From a bacterium (GTDB lineage Bacteria > Armatimonadota > UBA5829): a stretch of DNA of 64,000 bases. The stretch's first letter is position 1. Each line of letters begins with the position of its first letter. The translations under genes and the position numbers were made by a program. The stretch is from the NCBI GenBank assembly GCA_021371935.1, contig JAJFVF010000004.1, positions 62,001 through 126,000 of the forward strand, given 5' to 3'. This document shows, piece after piece, positions 25,069 through 40,634 of the stretch. Below the pieces are notes generated by a model. The model saw only the letters and a list, made by a program, of their open reading frames with translations, was not told where the DNA came from and searched no databases.

Positions 25069-25707
25069 GTGATAAAACAAACACCATTCGTTATCACAAT
25101 AAGCAGGCAACTTGGAAGCGGAGGCTCATACCTGGGCCAGAAACTGGCATCTCGATTTGGTATCTTATATGCAGACAGGGATATTTTACGCCAAGCAGCA
25201 AAGTCATTGAATGTCTCCAGTGAGGTCGCAGAACCAAGTGATGAAAAGGTTACCCCTGTATGGCTATCATTATTGAGAAGTTTTGAAAAAGGGCAGCCAG
25301 AGCTTTGCTATGTTCCGCCTGCAAATTTACCGCCAAATGATGACGAATTTCACACTGCGGAATCTTCAGTTATCAGGCAGATCGCTAAGAGTTGGTCTTC
25401 AGTTATTATCGGCAGAGGTGGATATCATCTGCTGCGAGACAATCCATGGCATTTTGCAGTTTTTCTACACGCCAATGTGGATTTTCGTTCCAAACGCATT
25501 CAGGAGATACATGATTTATCTTCTGAAAATGCAATGAAACTAATCGAAAGAAACGATCAGGATCGCAAACGATATCATCATATTGTATTCGGCAGTGATT
25601 GGACAGACGCAAGGCAATATCATCTTTCAATCGATACAAGCTCAATAGGATTTGACACAGCCGAAGAAATAATTGCTGACAGTGTTCTTGCAAAATTGAA
25701 TGTCTGA
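25069..25707 (+). CDS. Cytidylate kinase-like family protein, copy 1
   Basis: This 212-residue protein belongs to the cytidylate kinase-like family (PF13189 type). ITISRQLGSGGSYLGQKLA (residues 9-27) takes the place of the P-loop, but the Walker Lys is replaced (GSGGS instead of GSGKG), as is usual for this family. RDILRQAA and VIIGRGGYHLL are further landmarks, and RNDQDRKRYH gives a lid-like basic segment. Whether it phosphorylates CMP, another molecule or a protein is not established. It starts with GTG, with GGAGG about 11 nt upstream, 13 nt after the TolC gene. A second copy lies at 29239 in the same cluster. Confidence 0.75.
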   Translation: MIKQTPFVITISRQLGSGGSYLGQKLASRFGILYADRDILRQAAKSLNVSSEVAEPSDEKVTPVWLSLLRSFEKGQPELCYVPPANLPPNDDEFHTAESSVIRQIAKSWSSVIIGRGGYHLLRDNPWHFAVFLHANVDFRSKRIQEIHDLSSENAMKLIERNDQDRKRYHHIVFGSDWTDARQYHLSIDTSSIGFDTAEEIIADSVLAKLNV

Positions 25708-25741
25708 GTATTCGATCTAGTGTCTATCTGCTAATGACAAT

Positions 25742-27322
25742 ATGAAAAAGGCGCTGTCACATGATTCGAGAGAGTCTCAAGACTTTAATCTACATCTGCT
25801 TAATACCTATTGTTATGCAAGTGGATGCGATTATACAAAACAAGATTCATACTCAGCCGTCCGCGTTGAATTTAGAGATTGGAGTGTATTGATGATTAAT
25901 AAGCATTTTTCATTACTTGATTTATGGCATGGAAAGGAAATTGAGTTCTCAGGACCTCTAGCCCGGGTTCTCGGTTCGCGGCTTAAAGACAACGCAGCCA
26001 TAAAGATATATGTGTCAACTATCGGAAAATTCAAAAAAGGTAAACACATCGAACTACTTGGAATGGCAACTCAAATTACTGATGACGGAACTTTCTTGGC
26101 ATCAGCAACCGGTCCAATGTCGAATATTCCTGATGCGAAAAAGGCTATAAAAAGTGTTGAGGATGCTATTCGTCGACGAGGTAAACCTATAATCCGACGA
26201 GATGATGCACTAATATATACTTCATATCAGCCTCCAGTGCCAACGAAGGCTTCGATGAAACTGCTCGGCAATCACCTGGCGCTGGTATTGGATGGCCATC
26301 CTCAGCCGACAGTATGTACGCTTCAGGTTACTACAAAGTGCCAGGCCAATTGTGTCCACTGCAGTGCAGTCAGATACAAGGATCCAGATAAAGTCGAACT
26401 TACAACCGATGAATGGAAGAAAGTGATAACTGATTCCCAGCGACTTGGTGTTGTAAGTATTGTTTTTACAGGTGGCGAGCCCTTGACCAGACCAGACATC
26501 TATGAGCTTATAGATTATGTCGATAAGGATGAGGCTATCGCACTGATGTTCTGTAATGGCCTGCTGCTTAATGATAAGAATGTAAAAAAGCTGGCCGCAT
26601 CAGGTCTGTATGCCATTCATGTCTCCATAGATTCGCCCAATCCTGATGAGCACGACAGTATGCGCCGCGTGCCTGGCTGTTTCCAGAAAGCTGTCGATGG
26701 GCTAAAGCGCTGTAAAGATGCAGGTATAATGACAGGTATCTCCACATATGCCACTCCTGAGCGCCTCCATAATGGCCAGATAGTTGAAATGATTGAACTG
26801 GCAAAAACGATCGGTACAGACGAAATCACAATCTTTGATGTCGTTCCCACAGGCCGCCTGCTTTTGGAAGACAGAAAACACCTGTTGACTGATGAAGACA
26901 AAGCGGAGCTTTGCCGGATCGAAGAAGAGTGCAACATCGGGCATCCGCTTCCGCAAGTTATAACTCAGGCTCATATCAATGGACCTACAGGGAATGGTTG
27001 CTTCGCAGGCTGGTGTCAGTTTTATGTTACAGCTTTCGGAGATGTGACTCCATGTGATTTCACCCCATTGTCTTTCGGCAATGTGAGAAACGGGGAAGTG
27101 GAAGCATCCTGGCAAAAAATCGTTAGTCATGAAAATTATGGCTGTCATAACTCATGCTGCAGAATGCAGAATCCAGAGTTCAGATCACGCTGGATCGATA
27201 AGATTCCTCATTCTGGACCATTCCCATACCCAATAAGTGATGTGGATAAACTGCCTGACCCGTCGGAGAATGAAGTTCTGCAAAATGCCGTAAGCCACTC
27301 ATCAGTTGGAATCAAGCACTAG
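25742..27322 (+). CDS. Radical SAM protein with N-terminal extension and C-terminal cysteine region
   Basis: This 526-residue protein has a radical SAM core beginning with CQANCVHC (C200, C204, C207), which binds the [4Fe-4S] cluster used to split S-adenosylmethionine. VFTGGEPLTRPDIYELI and IHVSIDSPNPDEHDSMR are the next core strands. A C-terminal region with several cysteines (GCFAGWCQFY, DVTPCDF, NSCCRMQ) looks like a SPASM-type auxiliary cluster. The first 190 residues form an unidentified domain. SPASM-like radical SAM enzymes often modify peptides, but lipid and cofactor roles also occur; no precursor peptide is obvious nearby. No good ribosome site precedes the ATG, 34 nt after the kinase-like gene, so translation may be coupled. 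Confidence 0.8.
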   Translation: MKKALSHDSRESQDFNLHLLNTYCYASGCDYTKQDSYSAVRVEFRDWSVLMINKHFSLLDLWHGKEIEFSGPLARVLGSRLKDNAAIKIYVSTIGKFKKGKHIELLGMATQITDDGTFLASATGPMSNIPDAKKAIKSVEDAIRRRGKPIIRRDDALIYTSYQPPVPTKASMKLLGNHLALVLDGHPQPTVCTLQVTTKCQANCVHCSAVRYKDPDKVELTTDEWKKVITDSQRLGVVSIVFTGGEPLTRPDIYELIDYVDKDEAIALMFCNGLLLNDKNVKKLAASGLYAIHVSIDSPNPDEHDSMRRVPGCFQKAVDGLKRCKDAGIMTGISTYATPERLHNGQIVEMIELAKTIGTDEITIFDVVPTGRLLLEDRKHLLTDEDKAELCRIEEECNIGHPLPQVITQAHINGPTGNGCFAGWCQFYVTAFGDVTPCDFTPLSFGNVRNGEVEASWQKIVSHENYGCHNSCCRMQNPEFRSRWIDKIPHSGPFPYPISDVDKLPDPSENEVLQNAVSHSSVGIKH

Positions 27323-27346
27323 ATAGTTGAAAGAATAGGTGTTTTG

Positions 27347-27931
27347 ATGATGTTTTGGAATGAAGACGGTATTCGCTTGGCATTGTTCGTTCTAGCTCTA
27401 TTGCTGATTCCAGGATCTGCTTTATGTATCGAGCGCGACCTTGGCTTCCATCAGCGTGGTGACGTGCAGTGGACACAGTGGCTTGGAACCGGCGAGAACC
27501 ATCGAATACCGAGTGGTACCCATGTGCCTCATTTTTGCTTCGATGGTCTTGGCGTTGAGTATGGGAAGTTTATATCACCAAGGAAAAGCCTCGGCTGTGA
27601 GTTGTTTCTATCAGAGCAGATTGGCAGTGGAAACAACAATGCCGGTGCGATTCTAGGCGACTACAGAAACTACTTTTTCGTTCACGGACGGTTCGCAGCA
27701 GACTATACCGCAGGAATTGGCGTGATGCATATGCGTGACAAAGTAAGCGGACAGGCAACAAAGAACAACTTCTGTGAGCGACTGTCTGTGGGCTTGCATT
27801 ATGCCACCGGTCCAAACAACGCCGTGAGTTTGGAATACAGATTCTACCACGCGTCAAATGCTGGTATCGAGCGACCAAACCATGGGATCAATGCGACCAC
27901 GGTTGTCATAGGCTATAGCTGGTACAGATAA
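27347..27931 (+). CDS. PagL-like acyloxyacyl hydrolase / lipid A 3-O-deacylase
   Basis: This protein of about 194 residues has a signal peptide (to about residue 27) and outer-membrane beta-barrel character. RFYHASNAGIERPNHGI matches the PagL active-site region. His169 and Ser171 (counting from the TTG two codons upstream of the listed start) fit the catalytic His and Ser. The Glu that completes the Pseudomonas triad would align, from memory, with an Asn just after HGI, so catalysis may differ. PagL removes the 3-O-acyl chain of lipid A, which changes outer-membrane surface properties. Three possible starts (TTG, ATG, ATG) follow in series; the first ATG is chosen. The gene sits 24 nt after the radical SAM gene and 15 nt before the next. 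Confidence 0.75.
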   Translation: MMFWNEDGIRLALFVLALLLIPGSALCIERDLGFHQRGDVQWTQWLGTGENHRIPSGTHVPHFCFDGLGVEYGKFISPRKSLGCELFLSEQIGSGNNNAGAILGDYRNYFFVHGRFAADYTAGIGVMHMRDKVSGQATKNNFCERLSVGLHYATGPNNAVSLEYRFYHASNAGIERPNHGINATTVVIGYSWYR

Positions 27932-27946
27932 TTGGAGGATGAACAG

Positions 27947-28732
27947 ATGAGCGCAACAGACCCGTTGAGAAAACTGCTAACTATCGTAGTGACGCTGGTC
28001 ATGCTTTCGGCATCTCTCCCCGAGTATGCAGCCGAAATCGTGCTGGCTGACAAAAATGGCGGCTGTGACACATTACGTAACAGAATGAAACAGGAGCACA
28101 TCAATCTCGAAGACTTGACGGCAACATTAGTTGTCGATTACAGGAATGACCAAGTGCTGAAAAAGATGGGTGAAGGCCGTGTGATTGAGTATGGAATCAA
28201 GAATGCCCAGGTGCGTTTCAAGGTGCCGGATTGCAGCCGCATCGAGGGTACTGCCCACCGTCTGCGGGTCATCTCCATCACCAATCACGACTATAGTATA
28301 TTCAGAATCAAGTCATTAGGCTATCAGAAGACGAAACCGCTCGGTGAAAACGCCAAATATAGGCCGTTCGCCATGCTTCTCGGACTGGTGACTCCAGAGA
28401 TTTGGGATCAGTTTGCCATCAATGATGTCGGAATTCTGAACGAGGGCACTGATGAATTCTACGTGTTCGATCTATTACGCATTGACAGTTCGCGCAAACT
28501 TTACCGCATAACAATCGACATGAAAACGCTCACGCTCCACGAATGCGACACCTACAGATCGGAAGGAGACACACTCAGGCTGACTTGTCGTTATCTGGAA
28601 CCGATGCAGGTGAATGGACTATGGGTTCCTACTAAAGTGGAAATGCGCTCGGCTGATAGTGAACTGGCGGCCGTTTTCAAGCTTAGCAATATCGCAGTCA
28701 ATACCAACTTGGACGATGCTCTCTTTCACTAG
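27947..28732 (+). CDS. Exported LolA-like (outer-membrane lipoprotein-sorting) protein
   Basis: This protein of about 261 residues has a signal peptide (roughly 8-29) and a beta-rich mature part. The segments FYVFDLLRIDSSRKLYRIT, DMKTLTLHECDTY and LEPMQVNGLWVPTKVEM resemble LolA/LolB-type and outer-membrane lipoprotein-sorting proteins, which shield lipid chains in a half-barrel. The ATG at 27947 has GGAGG 8 nt upstream; an earlier TTG in frame would leave no room for a ribosome site. Directly after the PagL-like gene, it probably works in the envelope, perhaps carrying lipids or lipoproteins. Sequence similarity is loose, so the family call is tentative. Confidence 0.6.
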   Translation: MSATDPLRKLLTIVVTLVMLSASLPEYAAEIVLADKNGGCDTLRNRMKQEHINLEDLTATLVVDYRNDQVLKKMGEGRVIEYGIKNAQVRFKVPDCSRIEGTAHRLRVISITNHDYSIFRIKSLGYQKTKPLGENAKYRPFAMLLGLVTPEIWDQFAINDVGILNEGTDEFYVFDLLRIDSSRKLYRITIDMKTLTLHECDTYRSEGDTLRLTCRYLEPMQVNGLWVPTKVEMRSADSELAAVFKLSNIAVNTNLDDALFH

Positions 28733-28798
28733 TCGACACCTTTACAGCAATTTGTAATAGTGTAGCCTACTGCAGTGTGCTGGTGGCGGGAGGAATGA

Positions 28799-29017
28799 AT
28801 GAGAACGCTGACAATAGATGTTGTAGCCGATGATCTGGTTATCGGCCAACTGGAGCACACTGAGAGTTACTTTGCCGACTGGGACGAGTTGGCCCGCAAA
28901 GCTAGACAAATGGCCAGAGAACTATGCCCTGGGTGTAGGAAGCTGCAACTGTGGGCGGCGGACATCTGCTTGCTTGACTTGATATTGCAAGACGAATCGG
29001 CGTTACGCAACATGTGA
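28799..29017 (+). CDS. Small protein of unknown function (72 residues)
   Basis: This short acidic protein begins MRTLTIDVVADDLVIGQLEH, with a helical middle (DWDELARKARQMARELCPG) and a CPGCRK cysteine pair plus another Cys in ADICLLDLIL. I do not recognise the family. Support comes from a good ribosome site (GGGAGGAATGA before the ATG) and from its position 66 nt after the LolA-like gene in a run of same-strand genes. A still smaller frame begins directly after its stop. Confidence 0.55.
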   Translation: MRTLTIDVVADDLVIGQLEHTESYFADWDELARKARQMARELCPGCRKLQLWAADICLLDLILQDESALRNM

Positions 29018-29182
29018 ATGCTATTGTGTAGGTTCTTTTGGGATCAGTTAATGGCTGGCTTTATGATATCCGACATGGGGTTGCCCCAGCGCTTGTTTAG
29101 ACTTGTAAGGCAATCGCAACACGAACTATATGAGCGCATGGGAGACATCGACACCATCGATGTGGTTAATCACCAACAGTAG
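29018..29182 (+). CDS. Very small protein of unknown function (54 residues)
   Basis: The sequence TGAATG places this ATG directly after the stop of the 72-residue gene, so translation could pass from one to the other. The product begins MLLCRFFWDQLMAGFMISDM and continues with an amphipathic basic helix (RLFRLVRQSQHELYERMGD). No ribosome site of its own is visible. The composition looks protein-like and the frame is clean for 55 codons, but I recognise no family. Confidence 0.4.
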   Translation: MLLCRFFWDQLMAGFMISDMGLPQRLFRLVRQSQHELYERMGDIDTIDVVNHQQ

Positions 29183-29238
29183 AAAAGAAAACGACGACGG
29201 CCGCCAAACGCGGCAGTGTCTGAAGGAGTATTCATATC

Positions 29239-29886
29239 ATGTCAACGCAGACACCGTTTGTCATTACAATAAGCAGACAGTTCGGAAGTGGTGGAGCGTT
29301 TCTCGGACAGCGTATCGCCGCTCGTTTGCACATATATTATGTAGACAGAGAAATAATAGGCAAGGCTGCCGAAATAATACATCCGCCGGAAGACAACAAG
29401 AAAGCGATGAGCAAGAGTTCTATCAACAGATTAGAGTCATTGCTTAAATCATTCGAGCATACCGAGCCGAGGAGTTGCTGTAAGCCACTCGCTGATCTAC
29501 CTCCACCGGACGATGAATCTTATGTTATGGAAGCCCCGATTGTGACTTGGATCGCACAACACTGGCATTCAGTAATAGTTGGGCGAGGCGGCTATCACCT
29601 GTTGCGGCATAACCCAAGGCATCTTGCTGTTTATATACATGCAGATATGGACTTTCGATTAGAGCGCATCCAGAGCATCTACGGCGTATCTCCGGCACAA
29701 GCATTGAAGCTGATAGAAGCAAGTGACAGAGATCGCAAACTGTTTATCTACAACACAACAGGATCAACCTGGGAGAATACACAGCAATATCACCTTTCTA
29801 TCGATACAAGCGCACTAGGCTTTACACTTCCCGAGGAGATGATCCTGGACTCTATGCTCGCACGGCTTGAGAATAGCCTTGACTAG
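29239..29886 (+). CDS. Cytidylate kinase-like family protein, copy 2
   Basis: This 215-residue paralogue of the protein at 25069 repeats the same landmarks: ITISRQFGSGGAFLGQRIA in place of a P-loop, VDREIIGKAAEII, VIVGRGGYHLLRHNPRHLAV and YHLSIDTSALGF near the end. Both copies carry a Cys- and Pro-rich loop in the middle (CYVPPANLPPNDDE in copy 1, CCKPLADLPPPDDE in copy 2) and the same HLSIDTS strand. AAGGAG lies about 10 nt before the ATG. Two related proteins in one envelope cluster could form a heterodimer or serve different substrates. Their reaction is not known. Confidence 0.75.
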   Translation: MSTQTPFVITISRQFGSGGAFLGQRIAARLHIYYVDREIIGKAAEIIHPPEDNKKAMSKSSINRLESLLKSFEHTEPRSCCKPLADLPPPDDESYVMEAPIVTWIAQHWHSVIVGRGGYHLLRHNPRHLAVYIHADMDFRLERIQSIYGVSPAQALKLIEASDRDRKLFIYNTTGSTWENTQQYHLSIDTSALGFTLPEEMILDSMLARLENSLD

Positions 29887-30085
29887 AACAACGGAAACAA
29901 AAAAGCTTAAGTCAATAATCGCAAACGATGCGATGATCCTATTTGCAGGGAGATTGAGATAGCGGTTTAGACAACAGAATTCAAATAAGCGAATTGGATT
30001 GCCAGAACGACCGCAGCTTTGTCGTAGCCATATCTAGCGATAGTATATGCAAAAAATAGCACACTACTTTTCATGGAGAAATAAA

Positions 30086-30844
30086 ATGTATCCAGAACTT
30101 TCAGGAAAACACGCACTGGTGACGGGCGCAGCCCGAGGCTTTGGCCGATCAATTGCCATAAGACTGGCGGCTGAGGGGAGCACGGTCATTGTCAACTATC
30201 GAAGAAGCAAGATCGACGCTCAGAGCGTAGTTGCCGAGATAGAAGCTGCCGGAGGCCGAGCAATCGCACTGCGCGGTGACATGGGTAGCGAGGAGAGCCT
30301 GGATCGGCTCTTCAAGGAGATTGCGTCCGAACTTGGAAGTCTCGATATCCTGGTTGCAAATGCCGCATTTGGGATACCGGGTCCTTTGATGAACTCGTCC
30401 ACCAAGCATTGGGATGTCACGATGTCATCGTCGGCACGCTCACTTCTTGATCTAGCAAAACGCGCGGTCCCGTTGATGACTTCTGATTACAAGCGGATTA
30501 TTAGTATCACCAGTTCGGGCGGACACAGAGTGTTGGCGCAATACGGGCTGATGGGCGTGGCAAAAGGCGCCATGGAATCGCTTACCCGAAGCCTGGCTGT
30601 CGAACTCGCCCCTCAAGGAATTCTCGTGAACGGCGTGCTGGCAGGGGTGGCGGATACCAAATCGCTCCGCGCCATTTCTGGAGTCGAGGATCTGCTAACG
30701 AGCGCGAAAGGCCGCACTCCGCTCGGACGTCTGGTGGAACCGCAAGACATCGCAGATGTGGTGGCTTTTCTTGTTTCGGAACAGGCTCGGATGATTTGTG
30801 GTCAGTTCGTAGTTGTCGACGGCGGGTTTGAGGTTCTCGCTTAG
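30086..30844 (+). CDS. Short-chain dehydrogenase/reductase, FabL-like
   Basis: This 252-residue protein has the NADP(H) motif TGAARGFG (about residues 10-17), VNYRRSK and a late SRxxGRLVEPQDIADVVAFL-like tail. The catalytic Tyr and Lys lie in YGLMGVAK, that is Tyr-x6-Lys in place of the standard Tyr-x3-Lys. This wider spacing is the mark of FabL, enoyl-ACP reductase III, which carries out the last reduction of each fatty acid elongation cycle. The ATG at 30086 has GGAG about 8 nt upstream; the frame opens earlier without a site. It converges on the patatin gene across a 9-bp hairpin. Proximity to PlsX and patatin fits lipid synthesis, although other SDR roles are possible. Confidence 0.75.
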   Translation: MYPELSGKHALVTGAARGFGRSIAIRLAAEGSTVIVNYRRSKIDAQSVVAEIEAAGGRAIALRGDMGSEESLDRLFKEIASELGSLDILVANAAFGIPGPLMNSSTKHWDVTMSSSARSLLDLAKRAVPLMTSDYKRIISITSSGGHRVLAQYGLMGVAKGAMESLTRSLAVELAPQGILVNGVLAGVADTKSLRAISGVEDLLTSAKGRTPLGRLVEPQDIADVVAFLVSEQARMICGQFVVVDGGFEVLA

Positions 30845-30976: not shown

Positions 30977-31774
30977 TCATATAGACTGAGGATGCGCTCG
31001 AAGCTTTGCCAGCAGCATGCCTACGTTCTCTGAAGCATCCCTTCTACCAAGCCGCAATATCTCCGCCACCCGGTCAAAGTCGTACCACCGGTATGTCTCC
31101 ACGGGCGGCTGGAAGCAGAAGTCGCACAGTTTGATCTGCTGTAAGGACATCTCAAGTTCCATTATCTCTAAAGCCCTTAAAGCCACTTCTACCCGGCTCA
31201 GGCGTGGCTTGCCCCTGTTGTATTTGACCTCTGGCACACGATAGAGCGAGGAGCCAATAACGAAGTCCGCGCCGGACTTGCGAACGATATCGGCCGGAAG
31301 ATTTCTGGTGATTCCGCCATCTACGAGGTAATGGCCACTGACCCGTTGGATAGCAAACACGCCTGGATAGGCAGCCGAGGCTTTGACGGCTGCTACCGGG
31401 TCCCCGGAATCGATGACTACTGGAGCACCTGTAACAATGTCGGTAGCGACGCAAGAGAATGGCACCTGCAGATCCTCAAACGACCGGGCCTCAACGCACA
31501 TCGACAGCGCCTCGCCCACCAGCGTCCATATCTTCTCCGGTGTTCGCGCCAGTAGTCCCAACGGGCTCCTAATCAGTCCGTCTGTCTCCAGCAGTTTCAG
31601 GAAGCGGAAGATAGCATCGATTCCACCGTCTGCGTATAGCAGGCCTACAATCGCACCTGCAGATGTCCCACAGATAGAGTCCGGATGCACGCGGTGTTCC
31701 TCAATCTGCTCCAACACCCCTATGTGGGCAGCGCCAATCGCCCCACCACCGCTGAGTGCAAGTCCTATATGCAT
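30977..31774 (-). CDS. Patatin-like phospholipase
   Basis: This 265-residue protein has the full patatin signature: LALSGGGAIGAAHIG (oxyanion hole, 5-19), GTSAGAIVG with the nucleophile Ser (about 36-43), and the catalytic Asp in LVDGGITRNLP. It would cleave acyl chains from glycerolipids. It has the size of RssA/YchK-type cytoplasmic patatins and no signal peptide. GGAGG lies 8 nt before the ATG. It is the last gene of a minus-strand run that also holds PlsX, so the operon has both acyl-transfer and acyl-removal functions. Confidence 0.88.
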   Translation of the reverse strand: MHIGLALSGGGAIGAAHIGVLEQIEEHRVHPDSICGTSAGAIVGLLYADGGIDAIFRFLKLLETDGLIRSPLGLLARTPEKIWTLVGEALSMCVEARSFEDLQVPFSCVATDIVTGAPVVIDSGDPVAAVKASAAYPGVFAIQRVSGHYLVDGGITRNLPADIVRKSGADFVIGSSLYRVPEVKYNRGKPRLSRVEVALRALEIMELEMSLQQIKLCDFCFQPPVETYRWYDFDRVAEILRLGRRDASENVGMLLAKLRAHPQSI

Positions 31775-31848: not shown

Positions 31849-33522
31849 CTAGAGCCGCCCATGGCGCAGCATCGATATGAGAAGATAGAACCCCAACAGT
31901 GAGGCGGTAACGAAGCCCACAATTCCGAGGACTGGCCAGCCATGAAGCAGCGGTCCCACTCCGGCTTGAACGATCAGAGAAGAGCCGACAATGATCGCTG
32001 CTACGACAACACTAAACGATAGGCGGTTTGTCATCTGGTGCAGATGTGAGATAGGTTTATCTATCTTGGTCGGTTCAAACCTCACGGTCAGCCTGCCCGA
32101 GTTGAGCGAATCGAGCAGGTTGGCGAAATCCTGCGGGGCGGAACGAAGTAGCCGGTGTGCGCCTTGCACATCATTCAGCATGTCAACAATAAACCGGACG
32201 GGTGAGAACCTGCGCCGGATCATCTCGCGTGCGAAAGGCTGAGCTACCTCGAAGATGTTGAAAGTGGGATCAATGCCACGGCCGATTCCATCCAGAATCA
32301 CAACTGTCTTCGTTGCAAGTGTAAAGTCGGCAGGGATGCGTATGCTGTACTTTCGGGCGAGTGCCATCTGCTTGCTGACAATCTCTGCGGCACGTAGTTG
32401 TTGGATTGGTAGGCCATAGTATTTGCTGACTGTCCGCGAGATGTCTCTGGCCATTGCGGCGCGATCAACGTCGTTTGGTGCAATGCCGATTGTCAGAAGC
32501 GCGTCTATGATGGCTTTGATATCGCGGTGGACGATAGCCAAAAAGAGATCGGTAATCTGCTCGCGCAAGTCTTCATCAATACGCCCGACTGCACCGAAAT
32601 CTACAAATGCAATTCGACCGTTCTCTTCGATGAAAATATTACCTGCATGGGGGTCCGCGTGAAAGAAACCATCTTCAAGGACTTGTTTCAAATACAGCTT
32701 TGCACCAAGTTTTGCGATCCCTTTGCGGTCAACCAGTTTTGTGTCAATTGTCATAAGGTCATTCAGCTTGATGCCTGTGATGCGCTCCATTGTGAGCACC
32801 CGTTTAGTTGTATATTTCCAATAGATTCTCGGAATGTGAACTCCCGGTTCTTCGGCAAAGCTGTCACGGAAGCGGTCGGCATTGTGTCCCTCCAGCGTGA
32901 AATCCATCTCTTCGCGTGTTGCTTCCATGATCTGACGCACTATGTCGACCACGCCCTGTTGTCTTGCCCAAGACGTACTTCGCTCAAGCAGCTTTGCTAG
33001 ATTGAGCAAGATCTCGAAGTCGGTCTCCATTTCGTCCTCTATGTGTGGCCGCTGCACTTTCACTGCCACTTCATCACCAGTGTGCAATGTCGCAAAGTGG
33101 ACTTGTGCGATAGATGCTGCGGCGACCGGATTGTGTTCAAAGGTAGCGAATAACTCTTCAGGATCAGCGCCCATCTCTTCCTCGATTACCTGCCTGACCT
33201 TTGAATAGTGAAGAAACGGAACTTCATCTTGAAGCTTCTCCAGTTCGTCCACTAGCTCATCAGGTAATAAGTCACGCCGGGTACTCAGTATCTGCCCCAA
33301 CTTAATGAACGTGCCACCTAATTCCTCCAGCGCAAGCCGAACTCTACGCCATGTGGTTCGCCCTGGAAACTCGGCTTCAGTCTCATTACTTCGACGCCAT
33401 CTTCGTGGCAACAATCTTGCGAGCCCCGCTTGGTCCAGCAGATAGCCTAGATGATGATGCGCCGCAACGACGCCGATTTGTCTATAACGTTTTGTGTGTC
33501 TACTTATCGCCTCAAACTGCAT
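31849..33522 (-). CDS. AarF/UbiB (ABC1) family atypical kinase
   Basis: This 557-residue protein is of the UbiB type. The family-specific KxGQ motif is in FIKLGQILSTRRDLLP (about residues 78-93), the Ala-rich loop in VAAASIAQVH, the ATP-binding Lys in VAVKVQRP, and the catalytic region in DGFFHADPHAGNIF and FVDFGAVG. Two membrane helices end the chain (LSFSVVVAAIIVGSSLIV and IVGFVTASLLGFYLLISML). UbiB proteins bind and extract prenyl lipids such as quinone precursors from membranes. No ubiquinone or menaquinone genes are nearby, so here the link is to general lipid handling. ATG 33522 is preferred, with GAGGA 7 nt upstream, over an earlier TTG. Confidence 0.87.
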   Translation of the reverse strand: MQFEAISRHTKRYRQIGVVAAHHHLGYLLDQAGLARLLPRRWRRSNETEAEFPGRTTWRRVRLALEELGGTFIKLGQILSTRRDLLPDELVDELEKLQDEVPFLHYSKVRQVIEEEMGADPEELFATFEHNPVAAASIAQVHFATLHTGDEVAVKVQRPHIEDEMETDFEILLNLAKLLERSTSWARQQGVVDIVRQIMEATREEMDFTLEGHNADRFRDSFAEEPGVHIPRIYWKYTTKRVLTMERITGIKLNDLMTIDTKLVDRKGIAKLGAKLYLKQVLEDGFFHADPHAGNIFIEENGRIAFVDFGAVGRIDEDLREQITDLFLAIVHRDIKAIIDALLTIGIAPNDVDRAAMARDISRTVSKYYGLPIQQLRAAEIVSKQMALARKYSIRIPADFTLATKTVVILDGIGRGIDPTFNIFEVAQPFAREMIRRRFSPVRFIVDMLNDVQGAHRLLRSAPQDFANLLDSLNSGRLTVRFEPTKIDKPISHLHQMTNRLSFSVVVAAIIVGSSLIVQAGVGPLLHGWPVLGIVGFVTASLLGFYLLISMLRHGRL

Positions 33523-33566
33523 AGCTAATTCCTCTTCGAACAAGAGCAGGACTGTAGAAAACAGGT

Positions 33567-33597
33567 GTTCGGACGGGCATACCTTACCCGTCCGAAC
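33567..33597. terminator. Strong hairpin between phasin and UbiB genes
   Basis: GTTCGGACGGG (33567-33577) and CCCGTCCGAAC (33587-33597) form a perfect 11-bp stem. On the minus strand it is followed by ACCTGTTTT, a weak T-run. It may partly terminate transcription coming from the phasin gene or protect the upstream message. Confidence 0.5.
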
Positions 33598-33639
33598 ATC
33601 CGAGCACGCTTGATCGCTCCTGAACCCGTATTATGTCCA

Positions 33640-33951
33640 TCAGGAGCTAATGGAGAGTGATTCCAGTTCTCTTTCAAGAGAAGCAATCCTGTCCTCCAAT
33701 CGTTGAATATCCGATTTTGTCACCATACCCGTCTCTGCTAACAGCTTCTGCACGTGCTTCTCGACCACGGGGCGAATTTGTGCTCTCTCCTTATCTCCTC
33801 GTGCGATCAGTTCATTTACCAATTCCTTCGCCTGATCCTCGGTCAATTCTCCCTTCTTGGTTAAGTCTGCTGTGAATTTCTCAGCAGTCTCTTTAGTCAG
33901 AGAGAGCGTTCCAATACTTATTAACATTGCTTTCCTTACTAACTCAAACAT
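33640..33951 (-). CDS. Phasin-like (PHA granule / phasin family) small protein
   Basis: This 103-residue, almost wholly helical protein begins FELVRKAMLISIGTLSLTKE, then runs through KGELTEDQAKELVNELIARG to a C-terminal coiled coil (TKSDIQRLEDRIASLERELE). This is the pattern of the polyhydroxyalkanoate synthesis regulator phasin family. Such proteins coat granules or associate with hydrophobic surfaces. No PHA synthase is present in the window, so here it may sit on lipid droplets or membranes, or form a scaffold with its neighbours. GGAGGT lies 8 nt before the ATG. Confidence 0.72.
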   Translation of the reverse strand: MFELVRKAMLISIGTLSLTKETAEKFTADLTKKGELTEDQAKELVNELIARGDKERAQIRPVVEKHVQKLLAETGMVTKSDIQRLEDRIASLERELESLSISS

Positions 33952-34066
33952 GTGCTATTACCTCCATAAACTGTTTGTGAAGAACATTCTAGCGGTCGCT
34001 TACCGCCGCAGCGCATGCGAACAGCGTGTCCAATCACCTCGTTTCTGATATTGTGCTCCAGTTGAT

Positions 34067-35170
34067 TCAGGGAATTGTATCGTCAGCCCCTTCTGTCGTT
34101 GTTGTCGAGAGACTCTCCGTGAGTTGGGGTATCAACCCAGCGTGGTGATATCGAACAGCGGCGGCAATCGCATTGCTAATTCCCTTCGCTCTCGAGTTCC
34201 CCCGGCACTTGATGCAGAGGCCTTTGACTCCCAGCAAGGTTGCACCTCCATGGTGAGCTGAACTAAGATCATTACGAAGGTGTGACATGGCCATCATGGT
34301 GAATGGGTATCCGGGCCAAAGCAAAGGGTTCCTACTCAGACGATTCCCCAACATTGCGAGTAATGCCTGTGACCACGCCTCCGTATGTTTAAGAACAACA
34401 TTGCCGACGTATCCGTCACACACGATAACGTCGGCCCATCCTTCTGCGATATCGTTGCCTTCGACATTGCCGATGAAGTTCAATTGAGACCCGGCTAATA
34501 GCTCATAAGCTTCTAGTAAGGTCGATCCCCCTTTGGTAATCTCTGGCCCCACGTTGAGCAATCCAACCCTAGGTTCGCAAACTTCCAAGTTGCATCTGGC
34601 GAAAGCACTTCCGAGCAGTGCAAATTGCAGCAACTGCTGTGCTGTCGCACTGATGTTGGCACCAGCATCGAGGAGGATCACTTGGTGCTCAGGCGTCGGG
34701 ATCATAATAGTTATTGCCGGCCGTTTGATACCCTCCAACCGACCCAGAATAAGGCAAGCCGCCGTTACCATCGCGCCCGTACTGCCTGCGGTGACGAGCG
34801 CGTCGGCTTTGCCTTGAGCGAGTAAGCTCATGGCAACGGCAATTGAAGAATCGGGCTTGGAACGAAATGCTTGAAGTGGCTTCTCGTCCATCTCAATTAC
34901 ACTATGTACGGGGATAACGGAGACGCATGCCCGTCGACATGAAATACGCTTCAGCTCTTCGTCCACCCGGTCCGGATCGCCTACCAGCAGTACGTGTGCA
35001 CCGACAGCGCAAGAAGCTTGTGTGGCTCCTCTCACGATTTCCGCTGGAGCATAATCTCCCCCCATGGCATCCACGACTACACGTACTGGCCGTAGTGAAC
35101 CTGGTATTGCCGAGGCCTGAATTATATGGTCGCGACTACTCATCATTGCTGCCAACGCATCGTCTGCCAT
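34067..35170 (-). CDS. plsX: Phosphate acyltransferase PlsX
   Basis: This 367-residue enzyme converts acyl-ACP and phosphate to acyl-phosphate, the donor for the first acylation of glycerol-3-phosphate. VVVDAMGGDYAP (about 32-43) is the classical N-terminal motif; DALVTAGSTGAMV, LLDAGANI, LLNVGPEITKG and VVCDGYVGNVVLK-like strands follow. About 30 residues precede the usual PlsX start, which may be extra or may point to an internal start at one of the ATGs 8-10 codons in. Neither PlsY nor FabD/FabH is next to it, so this may be a second, specialised copy inside a lipid-modifying operon. The genome would have to be checked for another plsX. Confidence 0.9.
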   Translation of the reverse strand: MADDALAAMMSSRDHIIQASAIPGSLRPVRVVVDAMGGDYAPAEIVRGATQASCAVGAHVLLVGDPDRVDEELKRISCRRACVSVIPVHSVIEMDEKPLQAFRSKPDSSIAVAMSLLAQGKADALVTAGSTGAMVTAACLILGRLEGIKRPAITIMIPTPEHQVILLDAGANISATAQQLLQFALLGSAFARCNLEVCEPRVGLLNVGPEITKGGSTLLEAYELLAGSQLNFIGNVEGNDIAEGWADVIVCDGYVGNVVLKHTEAWSQALLAMLGNRLSRNPLLWPGYPFTMMAMSHLRNDLSSAHHGGATLLGVKGLCIKCRGNSRAKGISNAIAAAVRYHHAGLIPQLTESLSTTTTEGADDTIP

Positions 35171-35257
35171 TATGGTGTTCTCCCAGTCTGCATGTTCGTT
35201 TCACTTGCCCTTCTTCTTATGATGAGACATACCTCTAGTCTCACATCAATGATGTGC

Positions 35258-36658
35258 TTACTCTCCCCGACTCACCATGGTCTTGTCTTCGGGCAACCTA
35301 CCAGGTACCCGTAGTTGCCCCTGGAGTTTCTCCCACATAGGATCGGTAAGATGCTCCATCTCCTCTGCGTAGCGGTCCAGCGTCGGAGCCAGTTCGGTGA
35401 TAAGGCTTTCTGCACCCTCATGTGTCGCGTAGGCTCCACTCTCTGCCACTGCTTCTCGCAAAACATGGGGATTGTCTAAAAACATACATGGCTTAAGTTG
35501 GTTATCCGTCCAGGGGTAACGATTCCGTATTGCTTGGAAGAAAGAAGAATTGAGGCCTTCGCTCAGACTTTTCTCTTTGATGTTATCCACTGCGAAGTGA
35601 ACAAATGCACAAGGTTCTACATCACCATTACTGTTGATATGTGCGTAGAGCCGGGCAGCCATACACCCATTTGTTGTCCATCCATCGTTCCAGAAGTCCG
35701 CAACGAAGATAGGCTTGGTTGCTCTGATATGCTGGACACGTTCCCGCTGACACTCGCGCTCCGCTGGAGTCAGCATCTGCGAGGGATCGGGATTCATGCC
35801 AATGGGGACATATGTGAAATACCACCCGAAGAGGCACCCTTTCTCGATCAGCATATCAACGAATTCATCGCTTGCTACTACATCGACGTTCTTACGGGCT
35901 GTCATACTGGAAAAACCGAAAGGCACTTGTTTTCGCCGGAGAGTATCCATTGCTTCCATAAGCTGTGCAAATGTACCCCGTCCACGACGATCATCAGTCT
36001 GTTCTTCGAAGCCTTCGATACTGATCGCCGGCACGACATTTCCCAGTTCTGCAAGTTTTCGAGCTATGCTGTCATTGATCAGTGTGCCATTGGTGTAGAC
36101 CTGGAAGTAGACGTCATTGTGTTTGGCATAAATGTCAAACAGGTCCTTCCTAATAAAAGGTTCACCTCCTGTAATTGTAAAAAAGTAAATGCCCATCTCT
36201 TTGGCTTCAGTGATTATCCTGTCCAATAGTTCCAGAGGCATATCACTGTCCTTTCGATACTTTGCCGCCCAGCACCCGCGGCAGTGCAGGTTACACCTCT
36301 CGGTCGGGCTAATTACTAGAAGAAAAGGCGCTGCCTGATCATTGGCCATCAATTCATCGCGGCGTTCTGCGCCGAAGTAGATCGCGTTCAGGCCCAGGTT
36401 CTCCACGAGTTTGCGCCTGCATTTAGGATTGATCTCTCGCAGTACTCTGCGGCCGAGTGTCAAGGCAGGATGCTTCTGCTGAAACAGCCCTCGCAACTGC
36501 CGCATTTGCACCTTGTGTACTTCTTGCAGCGCGATCCCTTCCAATACTCGCGTCAATCTGATCAGGTTAGCATCCGAACTCCTCGCCAAAAGGCGCGGCA
36601 GTACCCGTGCTGCTTCCGTGGCTGCATAGCGCTTCGTTGATTGTGTGATATCCATCAT
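35258..36658 (-). CDS. Radical SAM enzyme of the lipid-type operon, SPASM-like C-terminus
   Basis: This 466-residue protein has a radical SAM core starting CNLHCRGC (C122, C126, C129), with FTITGGEPFIRKDLF and VVPAISIEGFEEQTDDRRG strands. The C-terminal half contains NGCMAARLYAHINSNGDVEP, CAFVHFAVDN and PCMFLDNPHVLREAV, where cysteines may hold a second cluster. The first 110 residues are helical. I have seen this type next to lipid genes, and bacterial tetraether or membrane-spanning lipid synthases are radical SAM enzymes too, but I cannot confirm membership. GAGGAG lies 5 nt before the first ATG. PlsX follows 87 nt downstream and the HTH regulator is upstream. Confidence 0.8.
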   Translation of the reverse strand: MMDITQSTKRYAATEAARVLPRLLARSSDANLIRLTRVLEGIALQEVHKVQMRQLRGLFQQKHPALTLGRRVLREINPKCRRKLVENLGLNAIYFGAERRDELMANDQAAPFLLVISPTERCNLHCRGCWAAKYRKDSDMPLELLDRIITEAKEMGIYFFTITGGEPFIRKDLFDIYAKHNDVYFQVYTNGTLINDSIARKLAELGNVVPAISIEGFEEQTDDRRGRGTFAQLMEAMDTLRRKQVPFGFSSMTARKNVDVVASDEFVDMLIEKGCLFGWYFTYVPIGMNPDPSQMLTPAERECQRERVQHIRATKPIFVADFWNDGWTTNGCMAARLYAHINSNGDVEPCAFVHFAVDNIKEKSLSEGLNSSFFQAIRNRYPWTDNQLKPCMFLDNPHVLREAVAESGAYATHEGAESLITELAPTLDRYAEEMEHLTDPMWEKLQGQLRVPGRLPEDKTMVSRGE

Positions 36659-36703
36659 AGTTACTCCTCTCGTTTAATCACAGCAATGGATCTCCTTGCG
36701 AAT

Positions 36704-36820
36704 CCCAAAAGACCCAAAAACGATCCCGTAAAAAAGGATCGCTTCCACTCGATCCTTCTAGGCTGCTTCTATTGTCAGCCAATGAAATTTGTTCGTTGGC
36801 CCCAAAAGACCAAAAAACCG
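36704..36820 (-). promoter_or_regulatory. Two repeated operator-like motifs (CCCAAAAGACC) and a terminator-like hairpin
   Basis: CCCAAAAGACCCAAAAACG (36704-36722) and CCCAAAAGACCAAAAAACC (36801-36819) are direct repeats 97 bp apart. Each is followed by a similar stretch ending in CGATCC. A third motif stands before the regulator gene at 37562. On the minus strand CGATCC and GGATCG around 36721-36742 form a hairpin followed by TTTTT, which could end the regulator transcript. The motifs are candidate binding sites of the HTH protein encoded between them. Confidence 0.5.
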
Positions 36821-36841
36821 GACAACTAAAAAGGACCTTGT

Positions 36842-37552
36842 CTACCCGATCCCTCCAAGGCGTTCCATTACCGTGCCAAGAAAGCCCAGCAGAGCTCGCT
36901 GCCTTGCTGCCTCCATTTGGTCGATTAGGGTATCATGTCGGCGAAGAAACTCTTCCAGCCGGTCGCGCAACTCAACGCTGCTCAAGTTGTTCCTTGGTAG
37001 ACTTCCCCCAACTTCAGCCAGCGCTAAGAGTCGTGCCCGTGCCGAGCGTACCCGCAACAAGATGTCCCGGAGTAACGGAATCTCTTGGATTTTATGTTGG
37101 GCATCTTTTACAGTCAGCAGTAGCGCGGTCATCGTTACTGCCCAGTACGCCAGCGTTGAAGTTTGGGAATCCAGCGTCTGAAGCAGTTCTTCTGCAAGAG
37201 CCCGATATTCATCCTGCGGATGTCCCTCAACTGCGGCAAGTATCCTCCTCTTGGTTTCCTCCCATTCTTCATCGTCGAAGCGCCCACCAGCCAGATCTAC
37301 CAACATAGATCTTCCCTTATCCGTAGGTCTGAACATTACGTGTGAGCGTCCCCCATCAGACGCGCGCTCACCAAGTGCGTATTCCCGCGTTATAGCACCC
37401 CTTTTCTCAAGCACACTCATCATATCATAGGCAGTCCACTTGCTGACTCCGAGTCTTGCGGCGAGGTCGACATAGTGCACAGGTTTGTCCTGTTCGCGGT
37501 AAATATCGACCAGTGTGCCAAGGAACTCAGTTTGTCGTGACGTTAATTGCAT
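36842..37552 (-). CDS. HTH transcriptional regulator of the lipid-type operon
   Basis: This 236-residue protein has an N-terminal winged-helix domain (RQTEFLGTLVDIYREQDKPV, DLAARLGVSKWTAYDMMSVL, TREYALGERASDGG wing) like DtxR- or MarR-type regulators. A helical C-terminal domain of about 150 residues follows that I do not recognise. It heads the minus-strand operon of radical SAM, PlsX, phasin, UbiB and patatin genes. The recognition motif may be the CCCAAAAGACC repeat found 10 nt upstream of its ATG and twice after its 3' end, which would give autoregulation. No good ribosome site is present (GAAGAGAA). Confidence 0.7.
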   Translation of the reverse strand: MQLTSRQTEFLGTLVDIYREQDKPVHYVDLAARLGVSKWTAYDMMSVLEKRGAITREYALGERASDGGRSHVMFRPTDKGRSMLVDLAGGRFDDEEWEETKRRILAAVEGHPQDEYRALAEELLQTLDSQTSTLAYWAVTMTALLLTVKDAQHKIQEIPLLRDILLRVRSARARLLALAEVGGSLPRNNLSSVELRDRLEEFLRRHDTLIDQMEAARQRALLGFLGTVMERLGGIG

Positions 37553-37580: not shown

Positions 37581-37808
37581 AACTCGAGTATACCAGTGGC
37601 TTCTACCTCTGTCAAGTGCCCTGGTGAGCCGCATTCAGAGGATGTTAAGTATGCTCCCGGCAACTGCATGGTTGGAGTCATCGTCACAAGAAGACTCTGC
37701 TAGAATAGCCAACCACATCGATGTGACCTAGGCAATGGATTTCTTCATCGTTTCAATTTTAACGTTTCGGCTGCTATCGGACGAGGTTTTTGCTGAGCAC
37801 GCGCAGGT

Positions 37809-38122: not shown

Positions 38123-38641
38123 TTATGACCAGCTTATCTTGTTTGTTGGCCGCGCCTTTCGGATCAGACTTCCACCATCAATGTAGCACCAAGCAGACTG
38201 CACAACACTGCCGGAAGTCATTACCGGAACCAGCACACGACGATATATGCAGGATTGCCCAAGACGGAAACCCTCAAGCTGATCAATCTTGGGTAGCGAT
38301 TGGCATGGGTCGGGAAAGGTTACCAGTTCGCCGTATATCATCTGCCAGGATGCTTTTTCACAGATAGCATCTGAAGTCCTATCCGAGAAGCGTTCCTGTG
38401 TTGCGACATCCGCCAAAGGATCCGATGTTCCGACAGCAATAATGCAGCTATCAGGCACCTGCAGAACCGGGATTCGTGATGGCAGTTCATAAAGCCGCCC
38501 TTGCACGACGGCCTCTTCTATACTGAGCGCAGTCTGGCAAAACCTGTCGTGGTTCCAATACCCCCGTTTGAGTGTACCGTATACAAATATCGAAAGTGTG
38601 CCTGTGCCAACCGAAATCTGATCATTATTAGTTTGTTTCAT
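38123..38641 (-). CDS. Gamma-glutamylcyclotransferase-like protein (GGCT/AIG2 family)
   Basis: This 172-residue protein has the family signature FVYGTLKRGYWNHDRF (residues about 19-34) for the oxyanion/glycine loop, and a catalytic Glu candidate in DQLEGFRLG. GGCT enzymes split gamma-glutamyl amides to 5-oxoproline and a free amine. In amidoligase operons they are thought to remove or recycle the gamma-glutamyl groups. ATG 38641 has GGAGGT 5 nt upstream. It follows the glutamine amidotransferase gene by 52 nt. The substrate is not known. Confidence 0.8.
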   Translation of the reverse strand: MKQTNNDQISVGTGTLSIFVYGTLKRGYWNHDRFCQTALSIEEAVVQGRLYELPSRIPVLQVPDSCIIAVGTSDPLADVATQERFSDRTSDAICEKASWQMIYGELVTFPDPCQSLPKIDQLEGFRLGQSCIYRRVLVPVMTSGSVVQSAWCYIDGGSLIRKARPTNKISWS

Positions 38642-38693
38642 ACTTACCTCCATATCTTATTGATCAGAGCGGATCTTCGTCCAACCGAGCTTG

Positions 38694-39485
38694 TTAGCCA
38701 GCGAAGCGTTGGAAACCCGAACGCCCTCTGCCAGCCAGTCTGAATGGCTGAGATGCAAATTTTGGAAGACTATCGCAATCGAGAGTCATTAGACTCATTG
38801 CTTGTGTTGGTATCTCCTGCCAGCCGGTATCAGATTGAAGAACGACATCGAGATGTGCAGGGTCAGATGCATAAATCATTACGTTGTGCTCCGGGTGGTA
38901 TCGAAATTCCAAAGGCTTGTTGCCTTTGATGACAATCACATTCTTCGGATCGAGCTTCGACGCCATTACCGCACTTATCAGCCCTCGACAAAGTGCAAGA
39001 CGCTTCTTGAACTCAATAAGGTCTATTCGTCCTTCGTTCAATGTGGCATCAGCCATTCTGAAGATGACCTCGCTGTCCACTTCAGCGAAACGAGGTAGAT
39101 CGAAGCGCATAAACAGATCGTCCGCATTGAGGATAGTGCCGTTGTGTGTTCCTAGAATCGCTCCGGCTCGAATTGGATGCGCGTTTGCGAGCACATTTAC
39201 ATCGCCACGGGTTGGCCAGCGAGTATGTCCGGCGAGCCACGTCGTTGCATTGTCGACCTCGGATATCACTTCGATAAACTCCTTTTCTTTGATAAACCTG
39301 GTCGCCGACAGTGGACGCTTGAAAATAGAGTGGCTACCGTTGTCTTTGAGCCAACTGATGCCGGTCGCGTAAGGACCACACTTCTCATTCAGGAGCAGTA
39401 AAAACATGAACAGCCACTTCAGATAGCTGCGTTCCTCCGGCTGCCTCTCCTTCGTGCCAAAAATCACTCCAAGTTGGCCACACAT
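38694..39485 (-). CDS. Class II glutamine amidotransferase domain protein
   Basis: This 263-residue Ntn-hydrolase starts with MCGQLGVIFG, so Cys2 becomes the N-terminal nucleophile after Met removal. GHTRWPTRGDVNVLANAHPI and GAILGTHNGTILNADDL are the standard glutaminase landmarks (as in PurF, GlmS and AsnB). There is no synthetase domain, so ammonia from glutamine would go to a partner, most likely the amidoligase in the same operon, or the enzyme may hydrolyse glutamyl amides itself. Its ATG shares one base with the TGA of the DUF5049 gene (TGATG), so the two are translationally coupled. Confidence 0.85.
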   Translation of the reverse strand: MCGQLGVIFGTKERQPEERSYLKWLFMFLLLLNEKCGPYATGISWLKDNGSHSIFKRPLSATRFIKEKEFIEVISEVDNATTWLAGHTRWPTRGDVNVLANAHPIRAGAILGTHNGTILNADDLFMRFDLPRFAEVDSEVIFRMADATLNEGRIDLIEFKKRLALCRGLISAVMASKLDPKNVIVIKGNKPLEFRYHPEHNVMIYASDPAHLDVVLQSDTGWQEIPTQAMSLMTLDCDSLPKFASQPFRLAGRGRSGFQRFAG

Positions 39486-39703
39486 CAGATATCACCTCCC
39501 TCAACTTCAAAGCCCGTGAATATACCGAGCCTGTATAAGTCCGGATTATCCTCCATCCAGACAATGGTCTCGAAATACTCCATATCAAAGGCCAATTTCT
39601 GCACCATCGGAGCATCGAACATGTTGGTCTTGCCTGATGCTCGGACTGCCTCGATGCCTCGCCATACCGACTCAGGAATCTTGACAGAACTAGTGTGTTC
39701 CAT
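39485..39703 (-). CDS. DUF5049 family small protein
   Basis: This 72-residue protein contains SSVKIPESVWRGIEAVRASG, TNMFDAPMVQKLAFDM and NPDLYRLGIFTGF, the pattern of DUF5049, a small family seen in phages and mobile DNA and often encoded beside amidoligases. The start at 39703 has GGAGG 7 nt upstream and lies one base after the amidoligase stop; the longer open frame is the shadow of that gene. It may be a peptide substrate or a partner of the amidoligase, although no conserved C-terminal acceptor motif is evident. Function unknown. Confidence 0.75.
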   Translation of the reverse strand: MEHTSSVKIPESVWRGIEAVRASGKTNMFDAPMVQKLAFDMEYFETIVWMEDNPDLYRLGIFTGFEVEGGDI

Positions 39704-39704
39704 G

Positions 39705-40634
39705 TCAAACCTCCGCAGGCTCCCGGCTTTCGCCGGGTTGATTCTTGGGTTTCGGTCTGCCTCTTTTGAACGCGGCGTCGCCGGGCATCGCATGCAAGAG
39801 GTGCATTCTAGCGGTCTTGAATTCGTCTCCGTTCAAACCCAGGTGAATGAGGAAAATCCTGAAGTCGTATTTAGCTGAGTTCGGGTCGAACTCTCGTTTT
39901 CGGCTGGAGGCTGCGCGGCTGTTAAGCGCCTTGGCTGCTATGGCAAGCACGAATTGGACGGCGGCTTTCACCTTGCCGGCATGCAGTGTCGCCTCAAACA
40001 TTCTGAACTCAACGGTCCCTCTATACCAGACGTTGTGCAAGTTCAGGCAGTTGTAACGAGTATTGTCATAATGAGTAGGACAGGTGTTCAGGTGGCCATA
40101 CCACAGGCGATTGACCTGCTCAAGCGTCCTAGGGCGGCTGTGTTCAAGCTTTGCTATGAACTCGGCGCTGATAGGTTTCGTATACTGATGCAGTCGCCGC
40201 TCGCTTACGCCAAGAGCTGTCAGAATGAGTGGCTCCTGTTTAAACATTATCTTCGCGAGGTTTGCCAGCGTCTTGCCAGTAAATGCACTCGAATCAGCAT
40301 GGATATGCATTCCGCAGTTCTGGTCAACTCGCAGGCCGCATTTGCGCAGCGCACGAACCACTTCCTGCAGCACTGGCAGGTCTTCGTAACTTAGTACCGG
40401 GCTTACTACTTCTGCACGCAGGTTGGAAGCTACACTCGTAAGCGAGGCATCGGCAACGACTTTCCATATTCTGCTGTGTGCATCTTTAACTTCCCATGGG
40501 TCGTAGCTGCTCGGACTTGCCACATGGCTGACTTCTCCGCCTACCACCGACTGGATGGCTTTAGCAGCCGTTTCGCGCGTTTTGCCTATTGTTTCAATCT
40601 CAACACCGAACTTCAGGTCTCTTAGATCAGTCAC
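39705..40634 (-). CDS. Putative amidoligase (glutamine-synthetase-like COOH-NH2 ligase)
   Basis: This 309-residue protein belongs to the putative amidoligase family (PF12224 type). [19 protein letters not shown] (9-27) carries the metal-binding Glu pair, [17 protein letters not shown] the His segment, and [18 protein letters not shown] the late Glu/Arg motif. The family is related to glutamine synthetase and is predicted to form amide bonds between a carboxylate and an amine using ATP, possibly on peptides or proteins. The GTG start has GAGGA about 7 nt upstream. With DUF5049, a class II amidotransferase and GGCT it makes a four-gene operon predicted for such ligases by comparative genomics. 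The C-terminus is basic and Pro-rich. Confidence 0.85.

Follow-up and report, generated by a model that had tools for sequence, protein, structure and literature searches.

What does a radical SAM enzyme do in the midst of genes for acyl lipids? The question is raised by a stretch of 64,000 nucleotides, hereafter the window, from the 3.54-Mb draft genome of a bacterium of the Armatimonadota. There, genes for a winged-helix (HTH) regulator, a radical SAM enzyme (P0001), PlsX, a phasin-like protein, a UbiB-family protein and a patatin lie collinear on the minus strand, separated by gaps of 74-183 bp. An earlier note on this DNA had read them as a possible lipid-remodelling operon, in which the radical SAM enzyme might join acyl chains carbon to carbon, as in membrane-spanning lipids. 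All six genes are present as it described them; the interval that it gave (31849 to 37552) holds those from HTH to UbiB, and the patatin gene falls outside. The explanation that we find best, and to which as a whole we give about an even chance, sees in the locus an accessory cassette for lipid remodelling that has been transferred horizontally, probably with a coupling enzyme of the type of Mss, the bacterial membrane-spanning lipid synthase.

Genes and expression signals of the run

Table 1. Features of the locus, in window coordinates, from the upstream end of the minus-strand run to the gene that converges on it.
Feature	Coordinates	Strand	Remarks
Promoter-like site, TTGACA-17-TATACT, TG-extended, sigma-70-like	37587..37615	-	Upstream of HTH; 11/12 consensus positions; consensus match only
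Winged-helix (HTH) regulator, 236 aa	36842..37552	-	Weak Pfam HTH_IclR/HrcA matches; kin adjoin the radical SAM gene on the same strand in 9 loci
Stem-loop, 13 pairs, possible terminator or attenuator	36715..36747	-	HTH-radical SAM gap
Radical SAM enzyme P0001, 466 aa	35258..36658	-	PF04055 89 bits, PF13186 32 bits
PlsX (phosphate acyltransferase), second copy in the genome	34067..35170	-	TIGR00182 305.4 bits, cut-off 243.4
Phasin-like protein, 103 aa	33640..33951	-	PF05597 28.1 bits, cut-off 28.8; ortholog at locus L096 passes with 36.5
Stem-loop, 14 pairs, possible terminator or attenuator	33566..33598	-	Phasin-UbiB gap
UbiB-family protein, second copy in the genome	31849..33543	-	PF03109 278 bits; KLGQ, AAASIAQV, HADPHAGN and DFG motifs
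Patatin-like lipase, last gene of the run	30977..31774	-	PF01734; GxSxG and DGG motifs
Converging SDR reductase, FabL-like	30047..30844	+	Best NCBIfam match FabL NF005975, 269.8 bits, cut-off 328

The cassette genes may be co-transcribed from the promoter-like site ahead of HTH, which is a strong one, but stem-loops sit in two gaps of the run. The lipid reading of the earlier note finds support in part, through the recurrent linkage of the radical SAM gene to lipid genes. The UbiB-family protein, which ends in two transmembrane-like segments, misses the cut-off of the UbiB equivalog TIGR01982 (450.7 bits against 487.55) and belongs to the wider ABC1/UbiB family PF03109. The reductase that had been said to converge on the run does so, and FabL is its best match, below the FabL cut-off. 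No SDR was found near the corresponding cassette of a genome from the same family (G011), nor any conserved link to the radical SAM family, and the gene probably lies outside the cassette.

The radical SAM enzyme and known lipid-coupling enzymes

P0001 carries its RS motif, CX3CX2C, at residues 122-129, and a SPASM-type start from C332 to C350. In an alignment of 67 relatives the only invariant cysteines outside the RS motif are C332, C350 and C391; the SPASM domain is thus a shortened one with three invariant auxiliary cysteines. This pattern suggests a single auxiliary Fe-S cluster with three Cys ligands, of which one site may hence be open or labile. In an AlphaFold2 model built with these relatives as input (pLDDT 91, pTM 0.90), residues 4-105 fold into five helices, and strands are absent ahead of residue 113. 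Amphipathic N-terminal helices were considered as a sign of lipid binding, and here the amphipathicity is not significant.

Comparison with the archaeal tetraether synthase, as the earlier note had proposed, gave a clear answer: P0001 is not Tes, scoring 34.7 bits on NF045702 against a cut-off of 450 that three control archaea pass. The radical SAM core is common to P0001 and Tes, or GDGT-MAS (PMC8941075, PMC9433317), and sequence similarity is limited to it; unlike Tes, P0001 has neither rubredoxin nor N-terminal Fe-S domain. Tes binds two lipids, and the auxiliary cluster at its reaction site has a labile Met ligand (PMC9433317), with which the putative three-Cys cluster of P0001 may be compared. 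Gms, the GMGT synthase, has according to its published description a helical N-terminal domain of six helices, RS cysteines at 123 and 127, and two auxiliary clusters, each with four Cys (PMC11186832). The likeness of P0001 to it lies in the succession of a helical N-terminal domain (here five helices), RS core, bridging region and SPASM-type domain, and in the near-identical start of the RS motif (residue 122 against 123). Three invariant auxiliary cysteines against eight nevertheless separate the two. By the features tested, P0001 is neither Tes nor Gms, the latter being set apart by description.

Work on a bacterial membrane-spanning lipid synthase, Mss, was reportedly published by Sahonero-Canavesi et al. 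in 2022. Our picture of this enzyme comes from three other papers (PMC11868695, PMC13274423, PMC11604127). According to these, membership in Mss is set at 30% identity or more, with E < 1e-30, to an experimentally tested Mss (PMC11868695, PMC13274423), the enzyme is partnered in genomes with Ger (PMC11868695), and sp3 C-C coupling of acyl tails is reported for bacterial Mss as for archaeal Tes. Ger is a relative of PlsA (PMC8788747, PMC11868695). The family of P0001 is likened to Mss by reported phyla and gene company, not by sequence: its spread over phyla is nearly that reported for Mss, and it adjoins or co-occurs with PlsA/Ger-like genes as Mss does with Ger.

Spread, gene company and probable movement of the cassette

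The family is widespread among anaerobes. Relatives 44-82% identical to P0001 are found in records labelled Armatimonadota, Atribacterota, Omnitrophota, Cloacimonadota, Synergistota, Actinomycetota (including Humimicrobium), Deltaproteobacteria, Brocadiaceae, Bacillota and Woesearchaeota, among others; a Woesearchaeota bin of 0.6 Mb is one of the sources. These phyla closely match the list that PMC11868695 gives for Mss in the Black Sea, with Humimicrobiia, Brocadiia, Omnitrophota, Cloacimonadota and Woesearchaeia common to both, a circumstantial likeness. The Clostridia were represented by 291 genomes, of which 85 gave a match at E 1e-25 and about 60 a full-length one; this fits the abundance of Mss in Bacillota that PMC13274423 reports.

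The commonest setting of these relatives is a solitary gene. Neighbours that do recur begin with the HTH regulator, which lies within 3 kb of the radical SAM gene in seven named loci against 0.24 expected. UbiB and phasin genes adjoin it in four loci (L096, L100, L109 and L129) from separate parts of the radical SAM tree, in varying order and always on the same strand; for UbiB, three loci stand against 0.24 expected (P 0.002), in a count that leaves out L096. Since the HTH-radical SAM and radical SAM-phasin-UbiB associations recur in other phyla, the neighbourhood exceeds chance. These two are all that recurs of the six-gene order, whose conservation had been an open question of the earlier note and which is not a conserved unit. 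Of the linkages that it had singled out, that to UbiB, with phasin, is kept in distant lineages, whereas that to PlsX is seen only in the window's family (the window and G011) and that to patatin in the same family and one weak case (L153).

Other lipid genes are found in the company of the family. Lipid A-type acyltransferases stand near the radical SAM gene in six loci, and BadF-DUF2229 (PlsA/Ger-like) genes, the most telling of the neighbours, directly 3' of it in two deltaproteobacterial loci (L133 and L142) and in one of the Armatimonadota (L091). In the two former the order is radical SAM, DUF2229/HGD-D, DUF2229, BadF ATPase, lipid A acyltransferase and acyl transferase. B12-binding radical SAM genes lie beside several relatives, and TetR genes occur at L091, at L094 and on a Methanosphaera plasmid. 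Among 291 Armatimonadota genomes, with a match at E < 1e-100 taken as presence of the radical SAM enzyme, DUF2229 is found in 28 of the 31 that bear it and in 69 of the 260 others (Fisher P 4e-12, kinship ignored). The window's genome has one DUF2229, within a BadF-DUF2229 protein of 1496 aa. PlsA and Ger are proteins of the BadF-DUF2229 kind, a kind that also takes in DUF2229 proteins other than these two.

The genome has a further copy of two cassette genes, one of PlsX in a fab cluster and one of UbiB with a phasin-like gene upstream. Because UbiB-phasin pairs without the radical SAM gene are common in the phylum, the pair of the cassette looks like a dedicated duplicate. Between genomes, cassette genes are overall 73-90% identical and housekeeping genes 34-70%. 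Against Zipacnadum (G290, locus L095), the radical SAM enzyme is 82% and the HTH regulator 78% identical, and housekeeping PlsX, UbiB and FabH 44%, 34% and 50%; against G235 (locus L096), the radical SAM enzyme reaches 77% and the cassette UbiB 73%, with FabH at 50%. Within the family, G011 shares cassette PlsX, UbiB, phasin and patatin at 83%, 90%, 89% and 88%, and housekeeping PlsX and FabH at 65% and 70%. The excess of cassette over housekeeping identity argues that the cassette probably moved horizontally, spread of the module being the simplest reading of these sequences. The G011 contig breaks off shortly after entering the radical SAM gene from its 3' end, and its assembly yielded no other copy as similar as the cassette genes are, so that the presence of the enzyme there is likely, not certain. 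Base composition leaves undecided whether the cassette belongs to a neighbouring prophage. As phage cargo it found no close counterpart: viral_contigs, scanned with the radical SAM enzyme, UbiB and PlsX, returned distant kin of the first (at most 32% identity), no UbiB and no PlsX, and the phages collection returned unannotated faecal contigs at 34-43%.

Competing readings and a proposed route

By sequence and fold, the solved proteins closest to P0001 are the peptide-modifying radical SAM/SPASM enzymes SkfB (VIA Z 26.5) and SuiB (Z 24.7), at about 20% identity, with the Tes structure at Z 17.9. P0001 might then mature a peptide (RiPP), its lipid neighbours being incidental. Because the ranking of solved structures reflects the shared core, it is without information on the substrate and does not discriminate between a lipid and a peptide enzyme. 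Unlike SkfB and SuiB, P0001 has a shortened SPASM domain, and its confident model lacks their RRE-like N-terminal domain, a winged helix with strands; its scores against NCBIfam equivalogs, peptide maturases included, are all far under the cut-offs; and no precursor-like family recurs among the neighbours of at least 80 aa. Peptide maturation is quite improbable in this light, and the all-helical N-terminus and equivalog scores speak generally against a place in the peptide-modifying or cofactor families that the earlier note had set against its own proposal. UbiB has long been linked with the making of ubiquinone, and if it marked a quinone pathway here, P0001 could act on an isoprenoid quinone or a similar cofactor. 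We regard this as improbable: the cassette UbiB is a second copy that falls short of the UbiB equivalog, acyl-lipid genes are the commonest lipid neighbours, and quinones are unlikely in a 0.6-Mb Woesearchaeota bin and in the many Clostridia that hold relatives. The near-confinement of PlsX and patatin linkage to one family, the solitary majority of relatives and the stem-loops between genes would suit a chance neighbourhood of six genes with no joint function. That is highly improbable given UbiB-phasin linkage in four lineages, shuffled in order and constant in strand, the extra copies of PlsX and UbiB, and a G011 block conserved above housekeeping level.

It is quite likely, then, that P0001 acts on lipid alkyl chains, since PlsA/Ger-like, lipid A-type acyltransferase and UbiB-phasin neighbours recur. 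The explanation as a whole is weakened by solitary relatives, the nearness of SkfB and SuiB, the stem-loops that interrupt the supposed operon, UbiB-phasin pairs that occur without the enzyme, and helices that are not significantly amphipathic. Coupling of the chains in the Mss way we judge an evenly poised proposition. The explanation as a whole also draws support from the matching phyla, the three auxiliary cysteines, the second PlsX and UbiB, and cassette identity above that of housekeeping genes. The same lipid neighbours would also fit if the enzyme altered chains otherwise than tail to tail, for instance by linking chains inside a single lipid, by desaturation or by some other C-H change; the gross architecture is like that of Gms, an enzyme that joins two chains of the same lipid molecule, and the neighbouring B12-binding radical SAM genes hint at further chain modification. 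Such chemistry is unlikely, though well short of negligible, since the phyla fit Mss better than the reported bacterial Gms homologues and the eight auxiliary cysteines of Gms are missing.

Under Mss-type coupling, the following route may be proposed. The dedicated winged-helix regulator placed ahead of the radical SAM gene would control the cassette. A second PlsX would supply acyl-phosphate, the patatin would trim acyl chains and, together with PlsX, alter the acyl supply, while the second UbiB-phasin pair would extract lipid at the membrane or present it there to the radical SAM enzyme. The latter would take hydrogen first from one acyl tail, then from a second, and join the two by sp3 C-C coupling, its candidate three-Cys auxiliary cluster holding the first tail radical, as proposed for Tes. 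A bolder picture, and a distinctly doubtful one, is that of a transmissible membrane-monolayer module with its own coupling radical SAM enzyme, UbiB-phasin pair and acyl supply, spreading between families of Armatimonadota, possibly as prophage-adjacent cargo, and revealing UbiB and phasin as partners in the synthesis of membrane-spanning lipids.

If the enzyme is Mss, which itself is known, what would be new is the cassette setting with UbiB, phasin and PlsX, not found in the papers covered here. Palaeoclimate studies make wide use of bacterial branched tetraether lipids as a proxy, and debate continues over the biological sources of these lipids. The cassette described here, regulated and transferable, offers a concrete candidate source of bacterial membrane-spanning lipids in the little-studied Armatimonadota, and the recurring tie of its radical SAM family to UbiB and phasin suggests a way for a soluble radical enzyme to get hold of the tails of membrane lipids, a step otherwise unexplained.

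Neighbours of the cassette

A set of three genes, coding for a GGCT, a glutamine amidotransferase and an amidoligase, lies upstream of the cassette's HTH gene in the window and inside the cassette, between patatin and UbiB, in the same-family genome G011; the set therefore travels with the cassette. Further upstream, and on the same strand, a prophage region ends just before the cassette; it codes for tail proteins, among them those of the sheath, the tape measure and the baseplate, and has a serine-recombinase-like ORF about 100 kb from the window start. The cassette is possibly prophage cargo, a candidate reading on which base composition favours neither side.

Features in the window and at compared loci
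Feature	Locus	Coordinates	Strand	Remark
Radical SAM/SPASM, PagL-like, LolA-like, two cytidylate-kinase-like genes	window	25069-29886	+	gene group
Second radical SAM/SPASM gene	window	25742-27322	+	
PagL-like lipid A deacylase gene	window	27344-27931	+	
GGCT, glutamine amidotransferase, amidoligase genes	window	38123-40634	-	upstream of HTH gene
Same three genes	L290	8232-10719		G011, between patatin and UbiB
Contractile-tail prophage region	window	41532-63982	-	tail genes; continues into L304 and L305
HTH gene and rSAM with an AhbD-like radical SAM/SPASM gene between them	L039	6664-10361		also L097, L082
rSAM cluster	L133	9992-20311		deltaproteobacterial
rSAM relative	L191	2254-3633		IncF-type plasmid record
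rSAM relative	L193	8037-9338		IncF-type plasmid record
TetR gene and shorter rSAM relative	L192	5200-6912		Methanosphaera plasmid

Relatives on plasmids

Relatives of rSAM, the radical SAM enzyme of the cassette, are carried by plasmids of Escherichia albertii and Klebsiella pneumoniae (36-37% identity, about 90% covered); the E. coli genomes searched were without a near match. On the Methanosphaera plasmid, the shorter relative (34% identity) is found 1 bp downstream of the TetR gene.

Further radical SAM and lipid genes

The plus-strand group of the window, in which the second radical SAM and PagL-like genes are joined by one LolA-like and two cytidylate-kinase-like genes, is possibly a further envelope-lipid cluster. 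Its radical SAM/SPASM and PagL-like genes are also present on the G011 contig, and contig C19 of the window's own genome carries a radical SAM paralogue (63% identical). In three Armatimonadota genomes, an extra AhbD-like gene separates the HTH gene from rSAM. The deltaproteobacterial cluster is a candidate for a more complete version of a locus that makes an unusual membrane lipid: besides rSAM it has PlsA/Ger-like subunits in split form, along with acyltransferases and B12 radical SAM genes.
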